DNA from: Streptomyces sp. R302
GTDB taxonomy: Bacteria > Actinomycetota > Actinomycetes > Streptomycetales > Streptomycetaceae
Direction: 5' to 3'
DNA length: 64,000 nt
Assembly (NCBI RefSeq): GCF_012927245.1
Contig: NZ_JABBGE010000002.1
Coordinates: 186,001-250,000, forward strand
Shown here: one piece after another, positions 17,125-59,423 of the stretch
Layout of the letters: each line of letters opens with the position of its first letter
How positions within the stretch are numbered: position 1 is the stretch's first letter
The notes under the pieces: model-generated
Database searches by the model: none
What the model was told of the DNA's origin: nothing
What the model saw: only the letters and a program-made list of their open reading frames with translations
Position numbers and translations under genes: made by a program

Positions 17125-17140
17125 GCTCGCGACGAGCCGT

Positions 17141-17202
17141 CTGGCTGTCCGGCTGTCCGGCTGTCCGGCTGTCTGGCTGTCTGGCTGTCTGGCTGTCCGG
17201 CT
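17141..17202. repeat. 8-bp tandem repeat, about 7.8 copies
   Basis: CTGGCTGT or CCGGCTGT repeated head to tail from 17141: C/T order T, C, C, C, T, T, T, then a partial C unit to 17202. It is non-coding, lies between a terminator and the 3' end of the neighbouring gene, and is likely to vary in copy number between strains. Confidence 0.92.
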
Positions 17203-38315: not shown

Positions 38316-38378
38316 GCCGTCGAGCGTAACCGCCCGTTCCGGGGCGATCTTCGCGGGGGTCGGGCTCGTCGAAGCGAG

Positions 38379-38447
38379 GGCCGGACCTCGCCGAACCGGG
38401 TGGCCGGACCTCGCCGAACCGGGTGGCCGGACCTCGCCGAAGCGGGG
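38379..38447. repeat. 23-bp tandem repeat, three copies
   Basis: Head-to-tail copies of a 23-base unit starting GGCCGGACCTCGCCGAACC: 38379-38401, 38402-38424 (identical) and 38425-38447 (diverging after 17 bases). It lies immediately after the MarR gene stop and upstream of the DUF3817 gene. GAAGCGAGGGCCGG just before it may be a fourth, decayed edge. Confidence 0.9.
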
Positions 38448-53840: not shown

Positions 53841-56800
53841 GTGCGGGGCTACGAACGGCAGGAGAGCCACCGAGCTGAAGACGACCATCTCTCGCGGTTC
53901 GAAGCCGAGATGGACCGGCTGAAGAAGGAGCGAGAGAAGGCCGTCCAGCACGCCGAGGACCTGGGCTACCAGGTCGAGGTCTTGCGTGCCAAGCTCCACG
54001 AGGCGCGGCGCACCATCGCGTCCCGCCCCGCCTACGACAGCGCGGACATCGGTTACCAGGCCGAGCAGTTGCTGCGCAACGCGCAGGCGCAGGCCGAGCA
54101 GCTCCGCCAGGACGCCGAGCGGGAGCTGCGCGAGGCCCGGGCACAGACCCAGCGGATCCTCCAGGAGCACGCCGAGCACCAGGCCCGGCTCCAGGCCGAG
54201 CTCCACAACGAGGCGGTGCAGCGCCGCCAGCAGCTCGACCAGGAGCTGAACGAGCGCCGCCAGACCGTCGAGGCCCACGTCAACGAGAACGTGGCCTGGG
54301 CCGAACAGCTGCGCGCCCGCACCGAGTCCCAGGCCCGCCGCCTGATGGACGAGGCCCGCGCCGAGGCCGAGCAGTCGATCGCCGCCGCCCGCGCCGAGGC
54401 CGCCCGCCTCTCCGAGGAGACCGGCCGCCGCGTCGGCGCCGAGGCGGAAGCCGCCCGCGCCGAGGCCGAAGCGATTCTGCTGCGCGCCCGCAAGGACGCC
54501 GAGCGGCTGATGACGGCCGCCTCCACCCAGGCGCAGGAGGCCACCGGCCACGCCGAGCAGCTGCGCACCGCAGCCGTCGCCGAGACCGACCAGGCCCGCC
54601 GCCAGGCCACCGAGCTGACCCGCGCCGCCGAGCAGCGGATCCAGGAGGCCGAGGAGAAGCTGCGGCAGGCCCGCGCCGAGGCCGACAAGGCCCTCGCGGA
54701 GGCCAAGGAGTCCGCCGCGAAGACGCTGGCCTCCGCCGACTCCGTCAACGAACAGCGCACCCGTACCGCCAAGTCGGAGATCGCCCGGCTCGTCGGCGAG
54801 GCCACCGAGAAGGCCGAGCAGCTCAAGGCCGAGGCCGAGGAGAAGCTCCGCGAGGCCACCGCCCACACCGAGAAGGTCTTCGCCGAGGCCACCGAGAAGG
54901 CCCGCGCCAGCGCCGCCGAGGACTCGGCCGCCGCGCTCGCCAAGGCCGCCCGGGGCGCCGAGGAGATCCTCAGCAAGGCCTCCGAGGACGCCGCCGAGAC
55001 CACCCGCAGGGCCTCCGAGGAGGCCGAGCGGATCCGCCGCGAGGCCGAGACCGAGGCCGACCGGCTGCGCTCCCGCGCCGAGGAGCAGGCCGACGAACTG
55101 CTCGGCTCGGCGAAGGACGACACCAAGGAGTACCGGGCCAAGACGGTCGAGCTCCAGGAGGAGGCCCGGCGGCTGCGCGGCGAGGCCGAGCAGCTGCGCG
55201 CCGAGGCCGTCGCCGAGGGCGAGCGGATCCGCGGCGAGGCCCGCCGCGAGGCCGTCCAGCAGATCGAGGAGGCGGCGAAGACCGCCGAGGAGCTGCTGGC
55301 CAAGGCGAAGGCCGACGCCGACGAGCTGCGCTCCAGCGCCGGCGCCGAGAGCGAGAAGGTCCGCTCGGAGGCGATGGAGCGCGCCCAGACGCTCCGGACC
55401 CAGGCCGAGGAGACCCTGGAGCGGACCCGCGCGGAGGCCGAGCGGCTGCGCGCCGAGTCCGAGGAGCACGCCGAGGCGGTACGGGCGTCCGCCGAGAAGG
55501 CCGCCGCCGAGCTGCGCGCGGACGCCGAGCGGGCCGCCGAGGCCCGCCGTGCCGAGGCCGCCGAGGAGCTGACCCGGCTGCACACCGACGCCGAGGCGAA
55601 GGTGGCCGCGGCCGGGCAGGAGCTGACCGACGCCCGCGCCGAGGGCGAGCGGATCCGGCGCGAGGCCGCCGAGGAGACCGAGCGGCTGCGCGCGGAGGGC
55701 GCCGAGCGGATCAGGACGCTGTCGGAGCAGGCCGAGCAGGAGGCCGAGCGGCTGCGGTCGGAGGCGGCGGCGGACGCGTCGGCGGCCCGTGCCGAGGCCG
55801 AGGCGACCGCGCAGCGGCTCACCTCCGAGGCGGAGACCGAGGCCGAGCGGCTGCGGTCCGAGGCCCAGGAGACCGCCGACCGGGTGCGGGCGGAGGCCGC
55901 GGCCGCCGCCGAGCGGGTGGCCGCCGAGGCCGCCGAGGCGCTGGCCGCCGCGCAGGAGGAGGCCGTCCGGCGCCGCCGGGAGGCCGAGGAGACGCTGGAG
56001 TCGGCGCGTTCCGAGGCCGGCCGGGAGCGCGAGCACGCCCGCGAGCAGTCCGAGGAGCTCCTGGCCGCCGCCCGCAAGCGGGTGGAGGAGGCGCAGGCCG
56101 AGGCGCAGCGCCTGGTCGAGGAGGCGGACGCGCGGGCGACCGAGATGGTCGGCGCCGCCTCGCGAGCCGCGCAGGAGGTCCGCGACTCGGTCGCCGGGCT
56201 GCGCGAGCAGGCCGAGGAGGAGATCGCCGGGCTGCGCTCGGCCGCGGAGCACGCGGCGGAGCGGACCCGGGCCGAGGCGCAGGAGGAGGCGGACCGGGTC
56301 CGCTCCGACGCGCACGAGGAGCAGGAGCGGGCCGCGGAGGACGCGGCCCGCACGCGGGCGCGCGCCCAGGAGGAGTCCGAGGCGGCGAAGGCGCTGGCCG
56401 AGCGGACGGTCGGGGACGCGATCGCGGAGGCGGAGAAGCTCCGTACGGACACCGCCGAGTACGCCCAGCGGGTGCGCACCGAGGCGACGGACGCGCTGGC
56501 CTCGGCCGAGCAGGACGCGGCCCGCACCCGGGCGGACGCCCGGGACGACGCCAACCGGATCCGTTCGGAGGCGGCCGAGAAGGCCGAGGGCGTGGTCGGC
56601 GAGGCGACGGCGGAGGCCGAGCGGATCGCCGCGGAGGCCTCCCAGGTCCTGGACGACGCCCGGCAGGCGGCGGACAAGCGCCGCCAGGACGCGGCCGAAC
56701 AGGCCGACACCCTCATCGGCGAAGCCGCCACCGAAGCCGAACGCATCACCACCGAAGCCACCCAGATCCTCGACGACGCCCGACAGGCCGCCGACAAGCG

Positions 56801-58373
56801 CCGCCAGGACGCCGCCGAACAGGCCGACACCCTCATCGGCGAGGCGACCACCGAAGCCGAACGCATTGCGGCGGAGGCCTCCCAGGTCCTCGACGAGGCC
56901 CGGCAGGCGGCGGACGAGCGGCGCCAGGACGCGGCCCAGCAGGCCGACACCCTCATCGGCGAAGCCACCACCGAAGCCGAACGCATCACCACCGAAGCCA
57001 CCCAGATCCTGGACGAGGCCCGGCAGGCGGCGGACAAGCGCCGCCAGGACGCGGCCGAGCAGGCCGACACCCTCATCGGCGAGGCGACGGCCGAGGCCGA
57101 GCGGATCGCGGCGGAGTCGGCCGAGCTGCGGGAGACGACCGAGCGGGACGCGGCGCGGCTGCGGACCGAGGCCGAGCAGGTCAAGACGGACGGCGAGGCG
57201 CACGCCCAGGCGCTGCGGACGGCGGCCCTGGCGGACGCCGAGCAGATCCTGGACGAAGCCCGGCAGGCCGCCGACAAGCGCCGCCAGGACGCGGCCGAGC
57301 AGGCTGACGCGCTGGTCGGCGAGGCGACCGCCGAGGCGGGCCGGATCACCGACGAGGCCGGCGAGCTGGCCGACTCGGTGACCGCCGACGCCCGTGCCGA
57401 GGCCGAGCGGACCATCGCGGACGCGGCCGGCGAGGCCGAGCGGCTGCGGGCCGACGGCGCCCAGGCGCTGGAGTCGGCCCGTCAGGACGCCGAGCGGATC
57501 CGTACCGAGTCGGCGCGGGTCAAGGAGGACGCCGAGGCGGCGGCCGAGCAGATGCGCTCGGAGGCCCGCGCGGAGGCCGACCGGACCCTGGACGAGGCCC
57601 GCGAGGCCGGCGCGAAGAAGCGCGCGGACGCGGCCGAGCAGGCCGACCAGCTGATCGCCAAGGCGCAGGAGGAGGCGCTGCGCGCCACCGCCGAGGCCGA
57701 GACGCAGGCCGACACCATGGTCGGCGCCGCCCGCAAGGAGGCCGACCGGATCGTCGCCGAGGCGACCGTGGAGGGCAACGCGCTGGTGGAGAAGGCGCGG
57801 ACCGACGCGGACGAACTCCTCGTCGGGGCGCGGAAGGACGCCACCGCCATAAGGGAGCGGGCGGAGGAGCTGCGGGGCCGCGTCGAGGGCGAGATCGAGG
57901 AGCTGCACGAGCGCGCCCGGCGCGAGTCGGCCGAGCAGATGAAGACGGCCGGCGAGCGGGTCGACAAGCTGGTGAAGGCCGCGGAGGAGCAGCGGGCCGA
58001 GGCCGAGGAGAAGGCCAAGGAACTGCTCTCGGAGGCGAGTTCGGAGGCGAGCAAGGTCCGGATCGCGGCCGTGCGGAAGGCCGACGGGCTCCTGAAGGAG
58101 GCCGAGCAGAAGAAGAGTTCGCTGGTGGCGGAGGCCGAGCGGATCAAGGCGGAGGCGGAGGCCGAGGCGGACCGGCTGGTCCAGGAGGGCCGGCGCGAGC
58201 TGGAGGTCCTGACCCGGCGTCGTACCGACATCAATGCCGAGATCTCCCGTGTCCAGGACGTTCTCGAAGCGTTGGAGTCTTTCGAGACTCCGTCGGCGGG
58301 AACGAAGGACGGACTCAAGGCGGGCGCTTCCTCGGGGTCCACTCGTTCGGGTGGCAAGTCCCAGGACGGCTAG
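53841..58373 (+). CDS. scy: Scy, polarity-determining coiled-coil protein (expanded)
   Basis: A 1510-residue, almost wholly coiled-coil scaffold that organises the hyphal-tip polarisome with DivIVA and FilP and interacts with chromosome-segregation proteins. The N-terminus MRGYERQESHRAEDDHLSRF, then RLKKEREKAVQHAEDLGYQV, is essentially that of S. coelicolor Scy. The rest is Ala/Glu/Arg/Gln-rich with hendecad-like spacing (EAERLR, AEAEAT patterns). The length exceeds S. coelicolor Scy (1326 from memory), partly through a 40-residue tandem repeat at residues 934-1093. GTG 53841 is chosen for conservation; ATG 53829 (four residues more) lies too close to its GGGGAAGG. The C-terminus is flexible (GASSGSTRSGGKSQ). 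Confidence 0.93.
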   Translation: MRGYERQESHRAEDDHLSRFEAEMDRLKKEREKAVQHAEDLGYQVEVLRAKLHEARRTIASRPAYDSADIGYQAEQLLRNAQAQAEQLRQDAERELREARAQTQRILQEHAEHQARLQAELHNEAVQRRQQLDQELNERRQTVEAHVNENVAWAEQLRARTESQARRLMDEARAEAEQSIAAARAEAARLSEETGRRVGAEAEAARAEAEAILLRARKDAERLMTAASTQAQEATGHAEQLRTAAVAETDQARRQATELTRAAEQRIQEAEEKLRQARAEADKALAEAKESAAKTLASADSVNEQRTRTAKSEIARLVGEATEKAEQLKAEAEEKLREATAHTEKVFAEATEKARASAAEDSAAALAKAARGAEEILSKASEDAAETTRRASEEAERIRREAETEADRLRSRAEEQADELLGSAKDDTKEYRAKTVELQEEARRLRGEAEQLRAEAVAEGERIRGEARREAVQQIEEAAKTAEELLAKAKADADELRSSAGAESEKVRSEAMERAQTLRTQAEETLERTRAEAERLRAESEEHAEAVRASAEKAAAELRADAERAAEARRAEAAEELTRLHTDAEAKVAAAGQELTDARAEGERIRREAAEETERLRAEGAERIRTLSEQAEQEAERLRSEAAADASAARAEAEATAQRLTSEAETEAERLRSEAQETADRVRAEAAAAAERVAAEAAEALAAAQEEAVRRRREAEETLESARSEAGREREHAREQSEELLAAARKRVEEAQAEAQRLVEEADARATEMVGAASRAAQEVRDSVAGLREQAEEEIAGLRSAAEHAAERTRAEAQEEADRVRSDAHEEQERAAEDAARTRARAQEESEAAKALAERTVGDAIAEAEKLRTDTAEYAQRVRTEATDALASAEQDAARTRADARDDANRIRSEAAEKAEGVVGEATAEAERIAAEASQVLDDARQAADKRRQDAAEQADTLIGEAATEAERITTEATQILDDARQAADKRRQDAAEQADTLIGEATTEAERIAAEASQVLDEARQAADERRQDAAQQADTLIGEATTEAERITTEATQILDEARQAADKRRQDAAEQADTLIGEATAEAERIAAESAELRETTERDAARLRTEAEQVKTDGEAHAQALRTAALADAEQILDEARQAADKRRQDAAEQADALVGEATAEAGRITDEAGELADSVTADARAEAERTIADAAGEAERLRADGAQALESARQDAERIRTESARVKEDAEAAAEQMRSEARAEADRTLDEAREAGAKKRADAAEQADQLIAKAQEEALRATAEAETQADTMVGAARKEADRIVAEATVEGNALVEKARTDADELLVGARKDATAIRERAEELRGRVEGEIEELHERARRESAEQMKTAGERVDKLVKAAEEQRAEAEEKAKELLSEASSEASKVRIAAVRKADGLLKEAEQKKSSLVAEAERIKAEAEAEADRLVQEGRRELEVLTRRRTDINAEISRVQDVLEALESFETPSAGTKDGLKAGASSGSTRSGGKSQDG
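56640..57119 (+). repeat. 120-bp (40-residue) tandem repeats inside scy
   Basis: Four consecutive in-frame units: 56640-56759, 56760-56879, 56880-56999 and 57000-57119. Each encodes the pattern (S/T)Q(V/I)LD(D/E)ARQAAD(K/E)RRQ. Units alternate SQV/TQI openings and ITTEA/IAAE(A/S) endings, so an 80-residue double unit appears duplicated. A diverged fifth copy is at 57240-57359. Parts of the units use GAA and ATC codons densely, unlike the GAG-dominated rest of scy. Confidence 0.93.
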
Positions 58374-58487: not shown

Positions 58488-59423
58488 ATGAGCGACACAT
58501 CCTCCCCCTTCGGCTTCGAGCTCGTGCGGCGTGGTTACGACCGCGGTCAGGTGGACGACCGCATTACCAAGCTGGTCGCCGACCGTGACAGTGCTCTGGC
58601 CCGGATCACCTCCCTGGAGAAGCGCATCGAGGAGCTCCACCTCGAAACGCAGAACGCCCAGGCGCAGGTGAGCGACGCGGAGCCGTCGTACGCCGGTCTC
58701 GGCGCGCGTGTCGAGAAGATCCTCCGCCTCGCCGAGGAGGAGGCGAAGGACCTGCGCGAGGAGGCCCGCCGCGCCGCCGAGCAGCACCGCGAGCTGGCCG
58801 AGTCGGCCGCCCAGCAGGTGCGCAACGACGCGGAGTCCTTCGCCGCCGAGCGCAAGGCGAAGGCCGAGGACGAGGGCGTCCGGATCGTCGAGAAGGCGCA
58901 GGGCGAGGCGAACTCGCTGCGTGCCGAGGCGCAGAAGGACGCCCAGTCGAAGCGCGAGGAGGCGGACGCCCTCTTCGAGGAGACCCGCGCCAAGGCCGCC
59001 CAGGCCGCCGCGGACTTCGAGACCAACCTGGCGAAGCGCCGCGAGCAGTCCGAGCGCGACCTGGCCTCCCGTCAGGCCAAGGCCGAGAAGCGCCTCGCCG
59101 AGATCGAGCACCGCGCCGAGCAGCTCCGCCTGGAGGCCGAGAAGCTCCGTACGGACGCCGAGCGCCGGGCCCGCCAGACGGTGGAGACCGCGCAGCGCCA
59201 GGCCGAGGACATCGTGGCCGACGCGAACGCCAAGGCCGACCGGATCCGTTCGGAATCGGAGCGCGAGCTGGCGGCGCTCACCAACCGCCGCGACTCCATC
59301 AACGCGCAGCTGACCAACGTCCGCGAGATGCTGGCGACGCTGACCGGTGCCGCGGTGGCCGCCGCCGGCTCCCCGCTGGACGAGGACCGCTCCGCGGGCG
59401 TCCCGGCCCAGCAGACCCGGTAA
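58488..59423 (+). CDS. filP: FilP, filament-forming coiled-coil cytoskeletal protein
   Basis: A 311-residue intermediate-filament-like protein that forms a meshwork below the growing tip and interacts with DivIVA and Scy. It opens MSDTSSPFGFELVRRGYDRG and VDDRITKLVADRDSALARIT, a DivIVA-like N-terminus, followed by a long coiled coil (about 65-280; LRLAEEEAKDLREEARRAAE, RAEQLRLEAEKLRTDAERRA) and a short tail. ATG 58488 follows AGGAA. It is separated from scy by 114 bases that include a TAGGAT -10-like site at 58442-58447, so it may have its own promoter besides readthrough from scy. Confidence 0.95.
   Translation: MSDTSSPFGFELVRRGYDRGQVDDRITKLVADRDSALARITSLEKRIEELHLETQNAQAQVSDAEPSYAGLGARVEKILRLAEEEAKDLREEARRAAEQHRELAESAAQQVRNDAESFAAERKAKAEDEGVRIVEKAQGEANSLRAEAQKDAQSKREEADALFEETRAKAAQAAADFETNLAKRREQSERDLASRQAKAEKRLAEIEHRAEQLRLEAEKLRTDAERRARQTVETAQRQAEDIVADANAKADRIRSESERELAALTNRRDSINAQLTNVREMLATLTGAAVAAAGSPLDEDRSAGVPAQQTR

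Follow-up and report, generated by a model that had tools for sequence, protein, structure and literature searches.

The Scy protein of Streptomyces coelicolor, which is 1326 amino acids long, consists of a short canonical coiled coil, a hinge and a very long rod of hendecads (PMC3718342, PMC9858780). The rod has a repeat of 51 residues in 14 turns, and the protein localises to the tip and binds both ParA and DivIVA (PMC3718342). That the lengths of coiled coils can be conserved, or changed by whole repeats, is already known as a general idea (PMC8598163, PMC9587094). The coiled coils of the synaptonemal complex keep their length, with few indels despite divergence in sequence (PMC8598163), whereas in Scy, as we describe below, a single rod contains both an arm of invariant length and a hypervariable segment that changes in phase. 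Another resemblance is found in signalling coiled-coil linkers, such as those of phytochrome-regulated diguanylate cyclases, where lengths in whole repeats (multiples of seven) keep the register as they do in Scy, but where the linkers are short and made of heptads, while the Scy rod runs in hendecads over hundreds of residues (PMC9587094). Neither length steps between species nor an invariant arm is described for Scy in PMC3718342 or PMC9858780. More generally, the literature searched held no description of a rod that joins an arm of fixed length to one in-phase variable segment. It also held no earlier report of length variation in Scy, although a mention is possible in Walshaw 2010 and Holmes 2013, reportedly the primary papers on the S. 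coelicolor protein, both of which fell outside the search.

The window analysed here is a stretch of 64,000 nucleotides from a Streptomyces genome that is assembled into 25 contigs with 7.95 Mb in all, and both scy and filP lie on its forward strand. It contains scy at 53841-58373, with a GTG start, as identified from the translation and from a match to the curated equivalog model NCBIfam NF041483, "polarized growth protein Scy", at 2102.7 bits, above the cut-off of 1040. The product is the same protein as in S. coelicolor, but has 1510 amino acids, a length that the initial annotation had given correctly, and carries 40-residue modules in its rod. According to the alignment with Streptomyces Scy and the published S. 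coelicolor layout, the N-terminal head (aa 1-65, 53841-54035) matches the canonical coiled coil CC7, which is followed by the hinge (PMC3718342). Directly downstream lies filP (58488-59423), encoding a FilP-like protein of 311 amino acids that adjoins scy in 157 of 158 relatives as well; its DivIVA match is weak here (24.4 bits against a cut-off of 28). FilP resembles Scy in having a DivIVA-like head and a hendecad rod, and served as a control with the same rod chemistry.

As the initial annotation had claimed, four units of 120 bp in the reading frame of scy occupy exactly 56640-57119; they are arranged head to tail and encode aa 934-1093. Each of these units (unit 1, 56640-56759; unit 2, 56760-56879; unit 3, 56880-56999; unit 4, 57000-57119) encodes one copy of a 40-residue module, which we call A, and any two of them are identical at 100-113 of 120 bases. 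The array has a higher order of 240 bp: Tandem Repeats Finder scores this period at 888, compared to 751 for 120 bp, and residue identity is 0.69 at a lag of 80 amino acids against 0.56 at a lag of 40. Unit 3 is nearest to unit 1 (113/120 nt) and unit 4 to unit 2 (105/120 nt), and this pairing in the unit tree, together with the 240-bp period, suggests that a stretch of 240 bp was probably duplicated last. A diverged fifth unit had also been proposed, and such a copy of module A does exist at 57240-57359, with 31-33 of its 40 residues identical to the array units; however, it stands apart from the array and groups with its positional counterpart in relatives. The two are separated by a 40-residue module B (57120-57239), which is unlike A in sequence and is part of 80-residue AB units in relatives. 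On the 5' side of the array, the match to the unit covers only about half a unit. A search of the genome for a source of the array returned scy itself and weak, short matches only. Units 1 and 3 contain runs of the glutamate codon GAA (GAAGCCGCCACCGAAGCCGAACGC..., at 56720-56760 and 56960-57000), while GAG is used nearly throughout the remainder of scy; these runs might reflect recombination with a different allele, and neither the genome nor the Scy loci yielded a source for them.

To follow the hydrophobic stripe along the rod, we coded I, L, V, M and F as hydrophobic and gave A half weight. The whole rod has one sharp period of 3.64 residues with a power of 126, where the maximum of 200 shuffles is 11.9, which matches the approximately 3.64 residues per turn (51/14) of the non-canonical Scy coiled coil. 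The array alone reaches a power of 33.0 at the same period (shuffled maximum 10.0), and the phase at a period of 40/11 is flat through it, within about 3 degrees over windows from aa 900 to 1100. Core positions placed by steps of 3 or 4 number 11 per 40-residue unit. The pitch of 11 turns in 40 residues is nearly equal to that of the published 51 residues in 14 turns (PMC3718342). The idea that a unit of 40 residues, being one heptad plus three hendecads (7+3x11), would preserve the register of the stripe is thus supported by a phase that continues unbroken across the array. The 51-residue periodicity that had been quoted alongside it is indeed the published one (PMC3718342), and relatives have homologous modules in two sizes, 40 and 51 amino acids, exactly one hendecad apart (51 = 40 + 11). 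We rejected a reading of the present array as disguised 51-residue units, since its units are 40 residues long, though module A does have a 51-residue form in these relatives. Within the N-terminal part of the rod, lag 51 is raised without being dominant, and lags of 11, 22, 18, 40 and 109 score higher.

The in-phase character of the steps extends across the genus. From 158 distinct, complete Streptomyces Scy sequences we drew 66 non-overlapping close pairs (identity of at least 0.86), a comparison that treats near neighbours as independent, and which yielded 33 indels in the rod. Their sizes are 11 (twelve times), 22 (nine times), 40 (three times), 29 and 33 (twice each), and 18, 44, 51, 80 and 91 (once each). 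All 33 can be written as 7a+11b, with a mean deviation from the 51/14 lattice of 0.031 turn, and the indels in the flexible ends of the protein are mainly of 1, 4 or 5 residues. A tree based on the N arm requires at least 68 changes in the length of the variable segment, 41 of them multiples of 11 and 15 more equal to 7 modulo 11; at a period of 3.64 these changes give R = 0.94, while jittering the lengths by as much as 5 residues yields 0.34 at most. A few of the tree steps, for instance of 4 and 37 residues, fall off the lattice, possibly as merged events, since parsimony steps may fuse separate ones. With 21 of the 33 independent indels being 11 or 22 residues, and 41 of the 68 tree changes multiples of 11, the usual quantum is the hendecad. 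The expectation that length differences would gather at 40, 51 or 11 residues therefore held in so far as the steps are in phase (11, 22, 40, 51, 80 and 91 among them), but not in the weight given to 40, which is a larger module and a minority step. The in-phase step rule itself is real.

Length changes are also confined in position, a feature absent from the initial annotation. All 33 rod indels of the close pairs lie within aa 837-1161. Ahead of them in the rod, the N arm (aa 66-836, 54036-56348) aligns over 771 consecutive columns with zero gaps in the 158 sequences, each from a different species. The length-variable segment (aa 837-1272, 56349-57656) has 436 amino acids here and between 145 and 516 across the genus, with 42 different lengths among the 158 sequences. 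It is followed by the C arm (aa 1273-1478, 57657-58274), whose length is again invariant in the full alignment, at 168 amino acids (175 in 15 sequences) plus 38. The FilP rod, unlike that of Scy, is of constant length, with no indel in 157 species. Beyond the genus, the N arm has the same length in 10 of 15 aligned family sequences from other genera, at 64-68% identity. In L214, L220, L221, L226 and L227, which represent three other genera, the N arm is seemingly longer by 84-288 amino acids and the C arm by 73-84, in alignments of only 44-47% identity, so the fixed arm length may be specific to certain lineages. As a separate observation, the 15 species with the longer C arm carry a 7-residue insertion, one heptad, near aa 1440; they include the two closest relatives of the present strain, which itself lacks the insertion.

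These relatives give an indication of how the array arose. In the closest ones found (L088, and L008/L089, which are one genome), Scy has 1397 amino acids, with exactly 120 fewer at the array site, where a single copy stands, and 7 more residues close to the C end; the shortfall at the array site is 80 in L019 and L024. Shortfalls of 120 and 80 suggest that the ancestral layout was probably A-B-A, and that the lineage studied here proceeded to A-A-A-A-B-A. A 40-residue duplication of the one ancestral A module would have come early, in the clade shared with L024 and L019, and the 240-bp duplication of the resulting 80-residue pair later, probably as the most recent event here. Other lineages have amplified AB (80 amino acids; L018, L011 and L030) or A51-B (91 amino acids; L010, L025 and L016), A51 denoting the form of module A that has an additional hendecad. 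Clear losses of stretches are seen as well.

One could also suspect that the array is merely a neutral minisatellite, recently expanded in one strain, or a product of mis-assembly, and the assemblies of relatives do show frame loss, runs of N or assembly ends in or just past the variable segment (L012, L014, L017, L020, L021, L026, L013, L015 and L023). Two of these broken records are complete or chromosome-length contigs, which suggests that some of the frame breaks may be polishing errors, and copy numbers from assemblies broken in this segment should not be trusted. The copy number given here is likewise taken from the assembly; however, any two units differ in 7-20 of their 120 bases, and the longest stretch repeated exactly within scy is 43 nt, so that ordinary reads should suffice to resolve the four units, and an assembly error is unlikely. 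Since similar repeated modules are also present in L092 and L094, genomes of one or two large contigs, and the in-phase rule is valid genus-wide, we regard a minisatellite or an artefact as highly improbable.

The array, its phase, the step sizes and their confinement are all observed, and from them we infer that stretches are duplicated, that the arms are under selection and that the variable segment acts as a spacer. We consider it probable that the Scy rod has a tripartite build, in which a spacer (aa 837-1272 here) lies between an N arm and a C arm of invariant length, and that this spacer turns over by in-phase duplication and deletion. Direct DNA repeats in the reading frame, which the hendecad sequence itself may supply, would be the sites between which stretches of it are duplicated in tandem or deleted. 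The changes that keep the phase (11n, 7+11n and their sums) would then be the ones seen, at 11, 18, 22, 29, 33, 40, 44, 51, 80 and 91 residues, and length changes in both arms would be purged by selection.

Part of this pattern might be a passive by-product, if slippage or recombination occurred only between repeats spaced at hendecad multiples and thus produced in-phase steps without any selection on register. Direct repeats in scy are in frame in 99% of cases or more, and those in the spacer are in phase in 67% at a length of at least 10 nt, 78% at 12, 93% at 15 and 96% at 18, a supply that alone could yield much of the pattern, although the in-phase share is raised partly by past duplications. 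Repeats of at least 21 nt are, moreover, commoner in the spacer than in the N arm (1.0 against 0.4 per gene), and young events are clean tandem copies, as in L115 (a 33-bp duplication, 100% identical) and L122 (a 66-bp copy with 92% identity). If repeats of at least 12 nt set the expectation, 78% of indels should be in phase, and the probability of 33 out of 33 is about 3e-4, but this rises to approximately 0.08 with the 93% at 15 nt; the mostly in-phase supply thus leaves selection for phase with only moderate support. The N arm holds 6.3 direct repeats of at least 15 nt per gene, compared to 3.2 in the variable segment, and since it equals or exceeds that segment in repeats of up to 15 nt, the supply of repeats alone fails to explain the confinement. 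Between 35 and 51% of the N-arm repeats (range up to 15 nt) are out of phase, yet no indel has survived in 158 species, which argues for a constraint on the length of the arm. Selection for phase and repeat-driven mutation can thus be told apart only in part, and we hold a purely passive origin to be possible, but the less likely account.

Different views can be taken of what the length variation does. The initial annotation saw in it a quantised way to tune the length of the polarisome scaffold. With such adaptive tuning, lineages would alter the length of Scy and thereby adjust how far the polarisome reaches or how it is spaced. A helix rises by about 0.15 nm per residue, and the range of spacer lengths would then amount to some 55 nm; large expansions have occurred repeatedly, in several lineages, with spacers of up to 516 amino acids, and the gains reconstructed on the tree exceed the losses (47 against 21), though this tally is sensitive to the root and the parsimony rule. 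Close species, however, differ by up to 120 amino acids, which is compatible with drift as well, and we find such tuning quite unlikely. One could also speculate that Scy is a spacer rod, whose two fixed arms hold binding sites at either side of a segment ratcheted in steps of 11 and 7+11n, with arm length and phase under selection and the distance between the arms varying by tens of nm with functional consequence, a picture that we put forward as doubtful. The vague notion that long coiled coils vary thereby becomes a testable rule on the places at which a cytoskeletal rod may or may not change its length, and on the steps by which it does so. The invariant arm of 771 residues points to unmapped functions of Scy that depend on spacing, while the spacer provides a natural series of rod lengths with which one could ask whether the geometry of the polarisome depends on the length of its scaffold.

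Two further repeats were noticed in the window. At 17139-17202, just after a terminator-like, GC-rich hairpin, an 8-bp unit (GTCTGGCT/GTCCGGCT) is present eight times, and at 38365-38446 a 23-bp repeat (CTCGCCGAACCGGGTGGCCGGAC) is present in 3.6 copies with 91% matching.
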